Shown here: positions 31,705-37,249 of the stretch, one piece after another | Numbering within the stretch: position 1 is the first letter of the stretch | Layout of the letters: the number at the start of each line of letters is the position of its first letter | Assembly: GCF_040371545.1 (NCBI RefSeq) | Contig: NZ_AP029048.1 | Span: forward strand, 434,001-498,000 | Source: Synechococcus sp. M16CYN | GTDB lineage: Bacteria; Cyanobacteriota; Cyanobacteriia; PCC-6307; Cyanobiaceae | Direction: 5' to 3' | DNA: 64,000 nucleotides | Program-made: the position numbers and the translations under genes | Notes under the pieces: generated by a model | Database searches by the model: none | What the model saw: only the letters and a program-made list of their open reading frames with translations | Told to the model about the DNA's origin: nothing

Positions 31705-32265
31705 ATGGCACCGTTGCCAACTCCGGAGCCTTTTGAGTTGTTGGAAACCGTAGAAACGGTAGCTGTTCGCAAGCTCCGGTTTGAGCGAAACCGGATCAGG
31801 TTACCCATAGCAATGGAGGGCACCTTTGGCATGATTCGCCATCCTGGTGCATCACTGGCAGTGCCAATCACAGACGACGGCCAGGTCATCCTATTGCGCC
31901 AATATCGTTTTGCTGTACAAGCACGGTTACTTGAGTTTCCTGCCGGCACCCTAGAAGAGGGTGAAGATCCGCTTGCGTCCATGCAGCGAGAGCTTGGGGA
32001 AGAAGTGGGCTACAGCGCAGCACGTTGGGATGGTCTGGGCTCAATGCTTCCCTGTCCTGGCTACTCTGACGAAGTAATTCATTGCTTCCTGGCCCGGGAT
32101 CTCATACCCTTGGAGAATCCCCCGGCTGGAGACGACGACGAGGACTTAGCCGTGGTAACTATGACTCCCGCTCAGCTAGATCGCGCTTTGGCTTCTGGTG
32201 ATGAATGGCTAGACGGTAAGAGCGTCACGGCCTGGTTCCGGGCGAAACAATTGTTGAGTCTTTGA
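31705..32265 (+). CDS. NUDIX hydrolase, ADP-ribose pyrophosphatase-like
   Basis: The Nudix box is complete: GTLEEGEDPLASMQRELGEE followed by VGY, matching Gx5Ex7REUxEExGU. Upstream is VILLRQYRFAVQARLLEFPA, the ADP-ribose pyrophosphatase-type strand just before the box, and downstream PGYSDEVIHCFLARDL, also typical of that subgroup. It probably hydrolyses ADP-ribose or related nucleoside diphosphate sugars in the cytosol. 186 residues. Its TGA overlaps the ATG of the photolyase gene by one base, so the two are coupled; a link to repair or flavin nucleotide turnover is conceivable but unproven. Confidence 0.88.
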   Translation: MAPLPTPEPFELLETVETVAVRKLRFERNRIRLPIAMEGTFGMIRHPGASLAVPITDDGQVILLRQYRFAVQARLLEFPAGTLEEGEDPLASMQRELGEEVGYSAARWDGLGSMLPCPGYSDEVIHCFLARDLIPLENPPAGDDDEDLAVVTMTPAQLDRALASGDEWLDGKSVTAWFRAKQLLSL

Positions 32266-33698
32266 TGGCGGTCCCTCGCGTTCTGTTCTGGCATCGTCGC
32301 GATTTGCGTCTAGCTGACAACCTTGGCATCCATAAAGCTGTTGGCATCAGCCCCGCTGTGACCGGGGTATACGTTCTGGACCCAGCGCTGATTAACCCAC
32401 CCGAATTTTTGCCACCAACGGCCCCAGCCCGATTGTGGTTTTTGACTGAAAGCCTGGTCGAGCTGCAGCAACGCTGGCTTGCAATCGGTAGCCGGTTATT
32501 AATTCTTGAAGGTGATCCGCTGGAAGTGGTGCCACAGTTGGCCAAAAGGATCGATGCTGAATCTGTTGTATGGAATAAGGATGTAGAGCCTTACAGTCGT
32601 GAACGCGATCGGCAGGTAGCAAGGAGTCTACAAGCTGATGGGCGCAAGGTGCTAGTTGGCTGGGATCAGCTATTGGTAGCACCTGAGTCGCTCAAAACTA
32701 GTACTGGTAATCCTTACCGCGTTTATGGTCCTTTCTTTCGCAATTGGCGAAACAAGGTGCAGGCCAATCGGCCTGCAACGGTCGATGCTCCTGCAGGACT
32801 GATTGATCTAAGTTCCGACTTGATCCCGGCTAGAGATCCACTAACTGCGATCCGCCACAACCATGGGTTTCAAGGAGCCGAGATCTGTCCGTGTCGTCCT
32901 GGCGAGGCAGCGGCACTGGAGCAGCTTACCAATTTTGGTAACAATGCCATGTCCGACTATGAGCTAAATCGTAATCTCCCGGGCACCGACGCCACCTCTC
33001 ATCTTAGTGCAGCATTGAGTGCCGGCACACTCAGCCCTCGTCAGGCTTGGTGCGTCGCGCAACTGGCTCGTAGTCGTATCTGTAATCACCAACAGCATAT
33101 GGCAATTGGTGTGTGGGAGCAAGAATTGGGTTGGCGCGAGTTTTACCAGCAGTCTTTGTTTCATTTCCCGCAGTTAGCGGACGGCCCGTATCGCGAGCAG
33201 TGGAGTCGGTTTCCGTGGAAGAACAACGCGGATTGGTTCAGTATTTGGAAAGAGGGCCAGACTGGTGTTCCTATTGTTGATGCAGCAATGCGTCAACTCA
33301 ACCAGAGTGGCTGGATGCATAATCGCTGTCGAATGATTGTCGCTTCTTTCTTGGTGAAAGATTTAATTTGTGACTGGCGTTGGGGCGAACGCGCCTTCAT
33401 GGAGATGGAGGTAGATGGAGACCTAGCTTCTAACAACGGCGGTTGGCAGTGGAGTACGAGCAGTGGAATGGATCCCAAACCGCTGCGTATCTTTAATCCT
33501 GTGACCCAAGCTGCAAAGTTCGATGCTCAGGGCGATTACATTCGTCGCTGGTTACCCGAACTAAAGCACGTCAACACCAAGGACCTGCTTACTGGGGAGA
33601 TTGGTGCGTTGGAGCGTCATGGCTACCCACAACCGCTTGTTGACCATAAAAAGCAACAAGCTCTATTTAGAACACTCTATTCTACAATTCGATCTTAA
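32265..33698 (+). CDS. phr: deoxyribodipyrimidine photolyase (class I, full length)
   Basis: Light-driven repair of cyclobutane pyrimidine dimers. The N-terminal antenna domain begins VLFWHRRDLRLADNLGIHKA and ends near residue 130. The FAD-binding domain shows GVWEQELGWREFYQQ, GQTGVPIVDAAMRQLNQSGW followed by MHNRCRM, FLVKDLICDWRWGERAFMEM, and DLASNNGGWQWSTSSGMD with RIFNPVTQ. The electron-transfer and FAD-contact residues (WMHNR, DxDxASNN, WQW) are all present. 477 residues, normal. ATG 32265 overlaps the NUDIX stop, so the TTG at 32262 is unlikely to be the start. A second photolyase-like system lies 2-3 kb downstream on the other strand. Confidence 0.94.
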   Translation: MAVPRVLFWHRRDLRLADNLGIHKAVGISPAVTGVYVLDPALINPPEFLPPTAPARLWFLTESLVELQQRWLAIGSRLLILEGDPLEVVPQLAKRIDAESVVWNKDVEPYSRERDRQVARSLQADGRKVLVGWDQLLVAPESLKTSTGNPYRVYGPFFRNWRNKVQANRPATVDAPAGLIDLSSDLIPARDPLTAIRHNHGFQGAEICPCRPGEAAALEQLTNFGNNAMSDYELNRNLPGTDATSHLSAALSAGTLSPRQAWCVAQLARSRICNHQQHMAIGVWEQELGWREFYQQSLFHFPQLADGPYREQWSRFPWKNNADWFSIWKEGQTGVPIVDAAMRQLNQSGWMHNRCRMIVASFLVKDLICDWRWGERAFMEMEVDGDLASNNGGWQWSTSSGMDPKPLRIFNPVTQAAKFDAQGDYIRRWLPELKHVNTKDLLTGEIGALERHGYPQPLVDHKKQQALFRTLYSTIRS

Positions 33699-35910: not shown

Positions 35911-36351
35911 TCAATGTCGCACACCGTAATGCTGCCAAATTGCTGGTTCGGCATCGTGCCAGTAGTGACTAAATCGTCCCAAGCGAGGCGGATGCGCGAG
36001 CTCTACAAACGTCTCCCCATCAAGCATCCGGAGAGGACATTCTCGGTTAATGGCATCTCCAATCCGTTTGATTCGAGGATCAACGGCTCTGCTGCTGACA
36101 ACTCCATCTGCTCCACAACGTTCAGCAAAAGCCAGGACTTCGGCAGCAACATCTCCTTTGCGTATTGTGATAGGCAAATCCAAACAACATTCGTAAAGGA
36201 AACCTAGTCGTTTGCGACTAATGCGCTGCATCTCAATCCAGACTTGATCAAAGACAAAAAGCCCAGGCGCTTCAGGGTAACTCTTGAAGGCAGGGTTAGC
36301 TGTTCCAAGTGCTTCTTCATGAAGCCAAATGATCGGCCGTTTCAGTTCCAT
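35911..36351 (-). CDS. photolyase N-terminal-like (Rossmann antenna) domain protein, stand-alone
   Basis: 146 residues that match the pattern of a photolyase/cryptochrome alpha/beta domain: strand 1 RPIIWLHEEALGTANPAFK corresponds to the usual LxWFRRDLRLxDNPAL, GLFVFDQVW to the second strand, RKRLGFLYECCLDLPITIRK then GD to the RxxFLxxxLxxLxxxL..GD region, and AAEVLAFAERCGADGVVSS to the next helix-strand. The arginines and aspartates of the RRDLRL antenna loop are replaced by EEALG, so the usual chromophore contacts may be altered. It lies 22 bases downstream of a gene encoding only the FAD-binding domain, so the two products could form a split photolyase or cryptochrome. The end may be truncated by a frameshift. 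Confidence 0.6.
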   Translation of the reverse strand: MELKRPIIWLHEEALGTANPAFKSYPEAPGLFVFDQVWIEMQRISRKRLGFLYECCLDLPITIRKGDVAAEVLAFAERCGADGVVSSRAVDPRIKRIGDAINRECPLRMLDGETFVELAHPPRLGRFSHYWHDAEPAIWQHYGVRH

Positions 36352-36373
36352 TGAGATTACTAGCTGCCTGGAT

Positions 36374-37249
36374 TTAACTTTTTATGGTCGACTTACTGCG
36401 GTTGCTTCGTCGTCGCACAGGTGTGTTGCGAATTGGGGGTGCATAGGGGAATAAATCGCTACCGAGCCTGTCGTAGCTGCCCTCAAACGGACAAGATGTT
36501 GCACTTGTACAGTTCTCGCAAAAACTACCCCCGCTGTAACGCTCCAGGGTGTCGCGATTGAAAAAATAGGGCTTATGGCTGAAAGTACTGGCGACCCACT
36601 GCCAGCTCAGGTTATTGCTGGCGGGATCGCCGTCAAGCAAATGCTCAAGAAACCAATCGGCCCCTGTCTTCCAGTGTACACGTCGCCAGTGCACCAACCA
36701 GGCTGCCATCCACATACGGGCGTGATTGTGTAACCAACCGATACTGACAAGCTGCTTGTAAAAACTATCCATGCAGGCCAAACCGGTGCATCCGTAGCGG
36801 ACATCTTCCGGAATCTCTCGGCTGTAACTAGCACTTACATAACCAGTTTTAAACTCTTCCTGATCATCGTTGATTCCATCACCAAGGTTTTGCCATATTC
36901 GTTGCCAGAAATCGCGCCAACCCAGCTCATTGATCAGTTTAGCCCCGTCGTCGCGATTGTGAATACTCTTGAAGACTGTGTCGCGCACTTCTGCCAGGGA
37001 AATTACACCGTGGCGGATGTAAGGCGATAAGCCTGTGACGAATCCGCCGAGGTGGTCGCGACTGCGAGCATATAGTTTCGCGTCAATGCTCTTTAGCCGT
37101 TTCTCAGCAGCCTCTCGCCCGCCACGGATTGAGCTAATTAAGCCGTTCGCTTCAGGAAACTCCCTCTCTAGCAATTCATTGAGATCATCGCGACAATTAA
37201 TAGTGCGCGGCATGTCGCCGGCAATTGGAGGCAACGGAGTAACTGGCAT
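36374..37249 (-). CDS. photolyase/cryptochrome FAD-binding domain protein lacking the N-terminal domain
   Basis: 291 residues. The FAD-binding domain is complete: RSRDHLGGFVTGLSPYIRHG, LGWRDFWQRIW, GCTGLACMDSFYKQLVSIGW with LHNHARMWMA, HWKTGADWFLEHLLDGDPAS followed by NNLSWQWVASTFSHKPYFFN. These carry the Asn, Asp and Trp positions used for FAD binding and electron transfer in class I photolyases. No antenna domain precedes it; only about 40 residues lie ahead of the first FAD-domain helix. Cys159 (in TGLAC), Cys244, Cys247 and Cys253 recall the four-Cys arrangement of iron-sulfur bacterial photolyases, although the rest of the domain is class I-like. Upstream of the antenna-like gene on the same strand; divergent from fabI. 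Confidence 0.8.
   Translation of the reverse strand: MPVTPLPPIAGDMPRTINCRDDLNELLEREFPEANGLISSIRGGREAAEKRLKSIDAKLYARSRDHLGGFVTGLSPYIRHGVISLAEVRDTVFKSIHNRDDGAKLINELGWRDFWQRIWQNLGDGINDDQEEFKTGYVSASYSREIPEDVRYGCTGLACMDSFYKQLVSIGWLHNHARMWMAAWLVHWRRVHWKTGADWFLEHLLDGDPASNNLSWQWVASTFSHKPYFFNRDTLERYSGGSFCENCTSATSCPFEGSYDRLGSDLFPYAPPIRNTPVRRRSNRSKSTIKS

Follow-up and report, generated by a model that had tools for sequence, protein, structure and literature searches.

The stretch of DNA that was analysed, hereafter the window, comprises 64,000 nucleotides of Synechococcus sp. M16CYN (G000:C1:434001-498000) and carries on its minus strand two consecutive genes of what appears to be a split photolyase. 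The first, phr4 (36374..37249, ATG start), encodes a chain of 291 residues which would be the FAD-binding and catalytic one, presumably of the short photolyase-like (SPL) type. A spacer of 22 bases (36352..36373, minus strand) separates its stop from the start of phr5 (35911..36351, ATG start), which lies 3' of phr4 and encodes an alpha/beta (antenna-type) chain of 146 residues. The coordinates, the lengths and the 22-base spacing given in an earlier note on this DNA, made from the sequence alone, are all exact. That note described the 291-residue protein as a FAD domain alone, and indeed PF03441 (80 bits, profile positions 2-127 of 203) is the single Pfam family that matches it at E<=1. The reversed order that it described, with the FAD gene first and the antenna-type gene second, is seen in the ORFs and in the profiles. 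Both genes appear to be under purifying constraint: in eight comparisons pN lies between 0.16 and 0.27 and pS, near saturation, between 0.72 and 0.89.

A complete class I photolyase (the phr3 of PMC9426592) is encoded outside the pair at 32262..33698 on the plus strand, 2.2 kb from it, where the earlier note had seen a complete photolyase 2-3 kb away. The best NCBIfam match of this neighbour is the 8-HDF type, with a score under the cut-off of that model. PF03441 matches two genes in the whole genome (1.96 Mb, 98.5% complete) and four in each of the 18 other genomes of the genus with a completeness of at least 95 (18/18). In G000, a search with the Phr1 protein matches the class I gene only, and searches with the Phr2 protein and with PF04244 give no match; the latter two had no same-genus positive control alongside, and PF03441 does detect the fourth gene of the relatives. 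The class I enzyme and the phr4/phr5 pair are thus the only ones found in this assembly, from which phr1 and phr2 are absent. That the pair is kept where only one class I enzyme remains suggests that it is worth retaining in a small genome.

The pair is already published (PMC3441193, PMC7393227, PMC9426592), and the statement in the note that class I photolyases and cryptochromes are known as single chains is therefore outdated. We take PMC3441193 to be Mella-Flores 2012 and PMC7393227 to be Guyet 2020. The third paper (Haney 2022, mBio; PMC9426592) names the genes phr4 and phr5, points out the reversed order and the Fe–S cysteines, gives the name phr6 to the fusion that two strains of Cyanobium have instead, leaves open whether one protein is made by a +1 frameshift or two proteins are made, and deduces a (6-4) specificity from the Fe–S cysteines. 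It also reports that the disruption of phr4 in RS9916 decreases UV-C survival 20-30 fold and does not lower UV-B survival, and that E. coli producing phr4/phr5 is protected against UV-C, with no significant difference between light and dark, and is not protected against UV-B. Since no light effect was seen in E. coli, photorepair by phr4/phr5 stays a prediction. No mutant in phr5 alone was found in the sections of PMC9426592 consulted; this paper is the sole match for phr4, phr5 and photolyase in the literature searched.

The window shares with the Phr4/Phr5 and Phr6 systems of PMC9426592 both genes, their order (consecutive, FAD first) and the four Fe–S cysteines; phr3 lies a few genes off in the window, as it does in that paper. 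It differs in that its assembly lacks phr1 and phr2, and in that its spacer of 22 bases does not match the seven bases described there, a spacing that we regard as the description of the authors and not as a requirement for membership in Phr4/Phr5. The observation made in the note is correct and the system was already known; what the present analysis adds is evidence that the two chains act in trans, the prediction of the cyclobutane pyrimidine dimer (CPD) as the substrate, and a link to the SPLs.

The assignment of the smaller chain depends on the profile of its family. The window Phr5 scores 16 bits against PF00875 (E 0.012), under the cut-off of 26.6. In an alignment of 49 Phr5 rows (the window protein and 48 of 55 after a 92% identity cut, from 72 in named loci), 31 rows match PF00875 at E<=0.01, the best at 1.4e-5, the window protein not being among these 31. 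A PDB search with a single Phr5 sequence returned only weak matches to orotidine decarboxylase (best E 0.003); with the Phr5 profile as the query, the only match was a weak one, to a cryptochrome (E 0.0067). When the alignment is compared to 13 canonical N-terminal domains with hhalign, the probability is 98.3 over 136 columns, with an E of 1.1e-14 (the value for one comparison) and a score of 91.6, vs 21.0 for the best of 60 column shuffles and 10.3 for the reversed version. These profiles make Phr5 a homologue of the alpha/beta domain of photolyases, which bears out the assignment of the small protein to the antenna-domain type in the note. Eight residues (W9, L15, D35, R48, F51, E54, G66, W131) are invariant in all 49 rows. 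The note had also stated that the RRDLRL loop is lost. The canonical W-H-R-R-D-L-R-L aligns to W-L-H-E-E-A-L-G in the window Phr5, so the arginines are indeed replaced, but the acidic residue is kept, as E or D in 48 of the 49 rows.

The C-terminal domain of NewPHL, which we take to be the name of Phr7, is said to act as a structural lid. Phr5 could likewise be only a lid of the FAD site, with no antenna pigment: its place after the FAD domain is that of the C-terminal domain in Phr7/NewPHL, and the RRDLRL stretch has lost its arginines. On the other hand, the Phr5 profile matches the canonical antenna domains (the probability of 98.3 above) and not the NewPHL C-terminal domain (0.2 and 2.7). 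A lid without pigment is a real possibility, on which we would nevertheless not quite bet.

Phr5 was detected in 83 of 386 cyanobacterial genomes, and Phr4, at E<=1e-30, in 92, from which we set aside 10 weak NewPHL-like matches (107-115 bits) and a 451-residue protein of another type (in G082). Both genes are present in 81 genomes, and all 81 Phr4 genomes have Phr5. Only two have Phr5 without Phr4: G380, where the match lies at a contig end, and G422, where phr5 is broken over two frames and no phr4 is found at E<=1e-30. The note had proposed to check gene adjacency across relatives, and the pair is kept together, 81 of 386 genomes having both genes against two with phr5 alone. Its idea of a split flavoprotein is likewise strengthened by the co-conservation of the halves, which most likely make one flavoprotein. 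The system was already in print.

The distance between the matches, measured between their ends and not from stop to start, is below 60 nt in 37 of these 81 genomes, 60-500 nt in 18 (two of them fused) and 0.5-5 kb in 4. In the remaining 22 the genes are unlinked: 12 genomes have both on a single contig, at distances from 25 kb to 4.9 Mb, and 10 have them on different contigs of draft assemblies, where the true distances could be shorter. This survey dropped second fragments (one, in G326, from the Phr4 search) and two weak extra Phr5 matches. Among 77 named loci, 58 have both genes as separate ORFs and 5 have them fused; the other 14 lack an intact phr4 in the sequence available, some of them being contig ends or having a broken frame; the co-occurrence outside Cyanobacteria rests on these named loci, which were recovered by Phr5 itself. 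Two loci of Mastigocoleus testarum BC008 (L118 and L119) carry an identical Phr5 on two contigs, with no phr4 within 3 kb on each side. The record titled Blastopirellula sp. NAT61 (L067) has a phr4 that falls inside the marine Synechococcus clade and is probably a misbinned Synechococcus contig.

That a frameshift could yield one protein is raised as a possibility in PMC9426592. A programmed +1 frameshift near the phr4 stop would fuse both ORFs into one protein of reversed domain order. Fused homologues do exist, PMC9426592 reports a constant spacing of seven G–C pairs in all its strains, and at 37 of 51 adjacent junctions (<60 nt) of the named loci the ORFs are shifted and the phr5 frame extends, uninterrupted, beyond the stop codon of phr4, so that the frame alone permits a shift. 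The other junctions argue against it: at 13 of the 51 both ORFs are in one frame with a stop between them, as in WH7803 (L086), where a TGA and 27 nt intervene, and at one the ORFs are shifted and the second frame is closed. Nor is the spacing constant, since the gaps range from -104 to +30 nt over the 51 junctions and equal 7 nt in two (UW105, UW140). In the window and 29 relatives, a set that overlaps the former in genomes and is not to be added to it, the gaps range from -47 to +22 nt, with 7 nt in none, and the frame relation is 2, 0 and 1 in 17, 10 and 3 cases, respectively. In the window itself, the phr5 frame upstream of the phr4 stop is open for 5 bases only. Overlaps of -1 or -4, which are in general a sign of coupled but separate translation, occur at 20 of the 51 junctions. 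Lastly, the genes are unlinked in 22 of the 81 genomes. Because unlinked genes cannot be joined by a frameshift, and since all three frame relations occur, a conserved frameshift is excluded, and we hold the single-protein explanation to be extremely improbable. Two chains acting in trans is the reading that fits best.

Domain fusions are the usual mark of a functional pair, and in all eight fused loci that we saw the FAD domain comes first and Phr5 second. Five of them are named loci from the Cyanobium/Vulcanococcus neighbourhood (L090, cut at a contig end, L091, L096, L099 and L109), and three are on Deinococcus plasmids (three fetched of four Deinococcus matches). The latter encode proteins of 456, 472 and 457 aa, which score 131-142 bits with the Phr5 profile and 337-348 bits with the Phr4 profile. 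In a Phr5-domain tree with 78 rows, built on few columns and with SH-aLRT as the only support (L108 and L134, at contig edges, omitted), the state "unlinked" needs six changes and the state "fused" four, and in each case at least two are forced by supported branches. The genes have thus probably been separated, and also fused, more than once, with both parts remaining in the same genome. On balance, we favour the idea that the antenna-type domain of SPLs is encoded as a separate Phr5 in Cyanobacteria, Chloroflexota, Acidobacteriota and Armatimonadota, that it joins an Fe–S CPD photolyase in trans, even from megabases away in some cyanobacteria, and that it was fused in the same order more than once (in relatives of Cyanobium and in Deinococcus).

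The residues of the catalytic chain were examined in an alignment of 38 Phr4 rows (the window protein and 37 of 46 after a 92% identity cut, from 58 in named loci). We use what we take to be the numbering of E. coli photolyase and, presumably, the positions and roles of its CPD-contact residues. E274 is found in 37 rows, W277 in 36, N341 in 37, M345 in 35 and W384 in 38, and the window Phr4 has all five. D372, D374, N378, W382 and W359 are each present in 38 of 38. W306, the terminal tryptophan of the class I electron chain, is kept in 24 of the 38 and replaced in 14 (by H, N, D, A, Q or Y), the window protein having Asn127 at this position. The replacement of W306 is found mostly in the marine Synechococcus clade, which hints at another electron route.

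The four cysteines of Phr4 are all present in 36 of the 38 rows and all missing in the other two (L132, L137), an all-or-none pattern that is as expected of one cluster. In the window they are C159 (codon 36773-36775, minus strand) and C244, C247 and C253 (codons within 36491..36520, minus strand), the last three being in conserved columns; all four are predicted Fe–S ligands, a role that is stated for the cysteines of RS9916 Phr4 in PMC9426592. Three Chloroflexota MAGs (L132, L137 and also L129) have a Phr4 without these cysteines and still an adjoining phr5; they are natural cluster-free forms.

Is the pair a (6-4) photolyase, as the four cysteines typical of the FeS-BCP family would have it? 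Prokaryotic (6-4) enzymes such as PhrB do have these cysteines in common with Phr4, where they occur in 36 of 38 rows, but they are not decisive for membership in FeS-BCP, some members of which lack them. The RS9916 mutant shows an effect of UV-C but none of UV-B, phenotypes that the authors of PMC9426592 read as favouring (6-4) repair; in the FAD-domain tree described below, the FeS-BCP rows also fall, with weak support, on the same side as Phr4. Conversely, at the position of the catalytic His366 of PhrB, 37 of the 38 Phr4 have an asparagine (N175 in the window), whereas four of four Phr2-type references have a histidine. According to PMC4619345, asparagine and methionine are the CPD counterparts of His366 and Leu370 of PhrB, and the H366N variant and the H366N + L370M variant do not repair (6-4) photoproducts. 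Moreover, PromaPL, which lacks the cluster, is also a (6-4) enzyme (PMC9426592 and PMC9178010), so that the Fe–S cluster is uncoupled from (6-4) activity and does not track the substrate. Since Phr4 has asparagine in place of histidine and keeps the CPD residues, and since the cluster is uncoupled from (6-4) activity, CPD repair is predicted, contrary to the published inference. The residues thus make the CPD, and not the (6-4) photoproduct, the most likely substrate of the pair, and we regard (6-4) photolyase activity as unlikely. The Phr4 of Chloroflexi OLB13 (L126), the sole one of the 38 with a histidine at the (6-4)-type position, is a candidate for an altered substrate.

The pair could also be a light sensor of the cryptochrome type devoid of repair activity, which would agree with the fact that the protection that it gives to E. 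coli is not light-dependent (PMC9426592). This is very doubtful in view of the near invariance of the CPD-contact residues in Phr4, and the RS9916 phr4 mutant is less tolerant to UV-C (same paper). The suggestion in the earlier note that the pair may do a different job from the complete photolyase is in part supported: the phr4 mutant of RS9916 is sensitive to UV-C and not to UV-B, and the residues favour a repair enzyme over a photoreceptor.

A tree of the FAD domains (70 rows) decides neither ancestry nor substrate. The nine NewPHL rows form one group (100/100), with the Phr4 rows outside it and weak deep forks, and the four FeS-BCP rows form another (100/100), on a branch of 8.2. A weak split (57/86) puts the Phr4 (bar one), NewPHL and FeS-BCP rows on the side away from class I; the class I, DASH and six other rows are together, across a branch of 3.6. 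The Phr4 rows require four changes on the best tree and are compatible with one origin. The program warned that long branches meet and that the Phr7 rows have an unusual residue composition.

The SPL class reportedly originates from Xu 2021. In papers that cite it (PMC9649867, PMC9178010, PMC9498864), SPLs are CPD enzymes similar to those of class I/III which lack the alpha/beta domain and have an Fe–S cluster, and SePhrC from S. elongatus is counted among them. The Phr4 of the window likewise has a FAD domain on a chain that carries no alpha/beta domain, and its CPD-type residues would agree with the CPD repair ascribed to SPLs. SPLs are described as domain-less, however, and Phr4 has Phr5 encoded apart; no paper that joins the term SPL with phr4 or phr5 was found in the literature searched. 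Phr4 is presumably an SPL, being likened to this class by description and not by a tree with named SPL rows.

One genome allows a closer comparison. Over 411 aa, the class I photolyase of G427 shows 100% identity to a stretch of PDB 1tez, which we take to be the S. elongatus/Anacystis photolyase, and G427 has a single Phr4-type gene followed by phr5, the match ends being 45 nt apart. G427 would then be S. elongatus and its Phr4-type gene SephrC; for this SPL, at least, the gene of the domain said to be missing very probably lies alongside. Three genomes with unlinked genes (G140, G228 and G292) had been considered as S. elongatus, an assignment that was dropped when the G140 photolyase proved to differ from 1tez/1owl at many sites.

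Class I CPD photolyases, such as E. coli phr and the neighbour at 32262-33698, share with Phr4 the catalytic residues and the W382/W359 tryptophan pair; unlike phr4/phr5, they are single chains with an N-terminal alpha/beta domain. We know of no Fe–S cluster in these enzymes. NewPHL/Phr7 (ref. 48 of PMC9426592) has its FAD domain first, as in Phr4/Phr5, and all five CPD-contact residues in nine of nine rows, as in the window Phr4. It differs from Phr4/Phr5, which is on two chains, in being a single chain, and from Phr4 in having the Fe–S cysteine motif in none of the nine rows. The possibility that the C-terminal (Z) domain of NewPHL is a diverged Phr5 is not supported by the hhalign probabilities of 0.2 and 2.7, obtained with shallow alignments, with which a distant link is compatible.

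We think it likely that phr4 and phr5 encode two polypeptides of one light-driven repair enzyme, in which Phr4 would hold FAD and a [4Fe–4S] cluster and act on CPDs, with Phr5 joining it in trans. The homology, the co-conservation, the unlinked and fused arrangements and the conservation of residues are observed; from them we infer the physical complex, the cofactors, the substrate and the role of Phr5. In the mechanism that we propose, phr4 and phr5 would be translated as two chains, in a coupled manner where the ORFs overlap. Phr4, loaded with FAD and the [4Fe–4S] cluster, would flip the dimerised pyrimidines into its pocket, where an electron transferred from excited FADH- would repair them. 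Phr5 would dock onto Phr4 in trans and act as a lid, perhaps also as the carrier of an antenna.

If this is true, there is a photolyase made of two separately encoded subunits, and such an enzyme would be a natural on/off test of the antenna-type domain, since Phr5 can be removed or swapped with the catalytic chain intact. The results bear on two questions in the published work: phr4 and phr5 are not joined by frameshifting as a conserved rule, and the residues point to CPD where the Fe–S cluster had been taken as a marker of (6-4) activity. SPLs have been suggested in other work to be ancestral to the family; should their partner domain be encoded by a separate gene, "short" would not mean domain-less.

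Two further sets of proteins deserve mention. The three Deinococcus fusions (L176, L177, L178) have a CxxC...C motif and are annotated merely as "FAD-binding domain-containing protein", with transposase genes near two of the three. L140 (from G082) and L183 (from a Persicobacter plasmid) encode FAD-first proteins of about 450 aa that lack the cysteine motif (by eye for L183), and their C-termini have an F-x-x-(F/Y)-W-like ending which resembles, by look, the RFSRYW end of Phr5.
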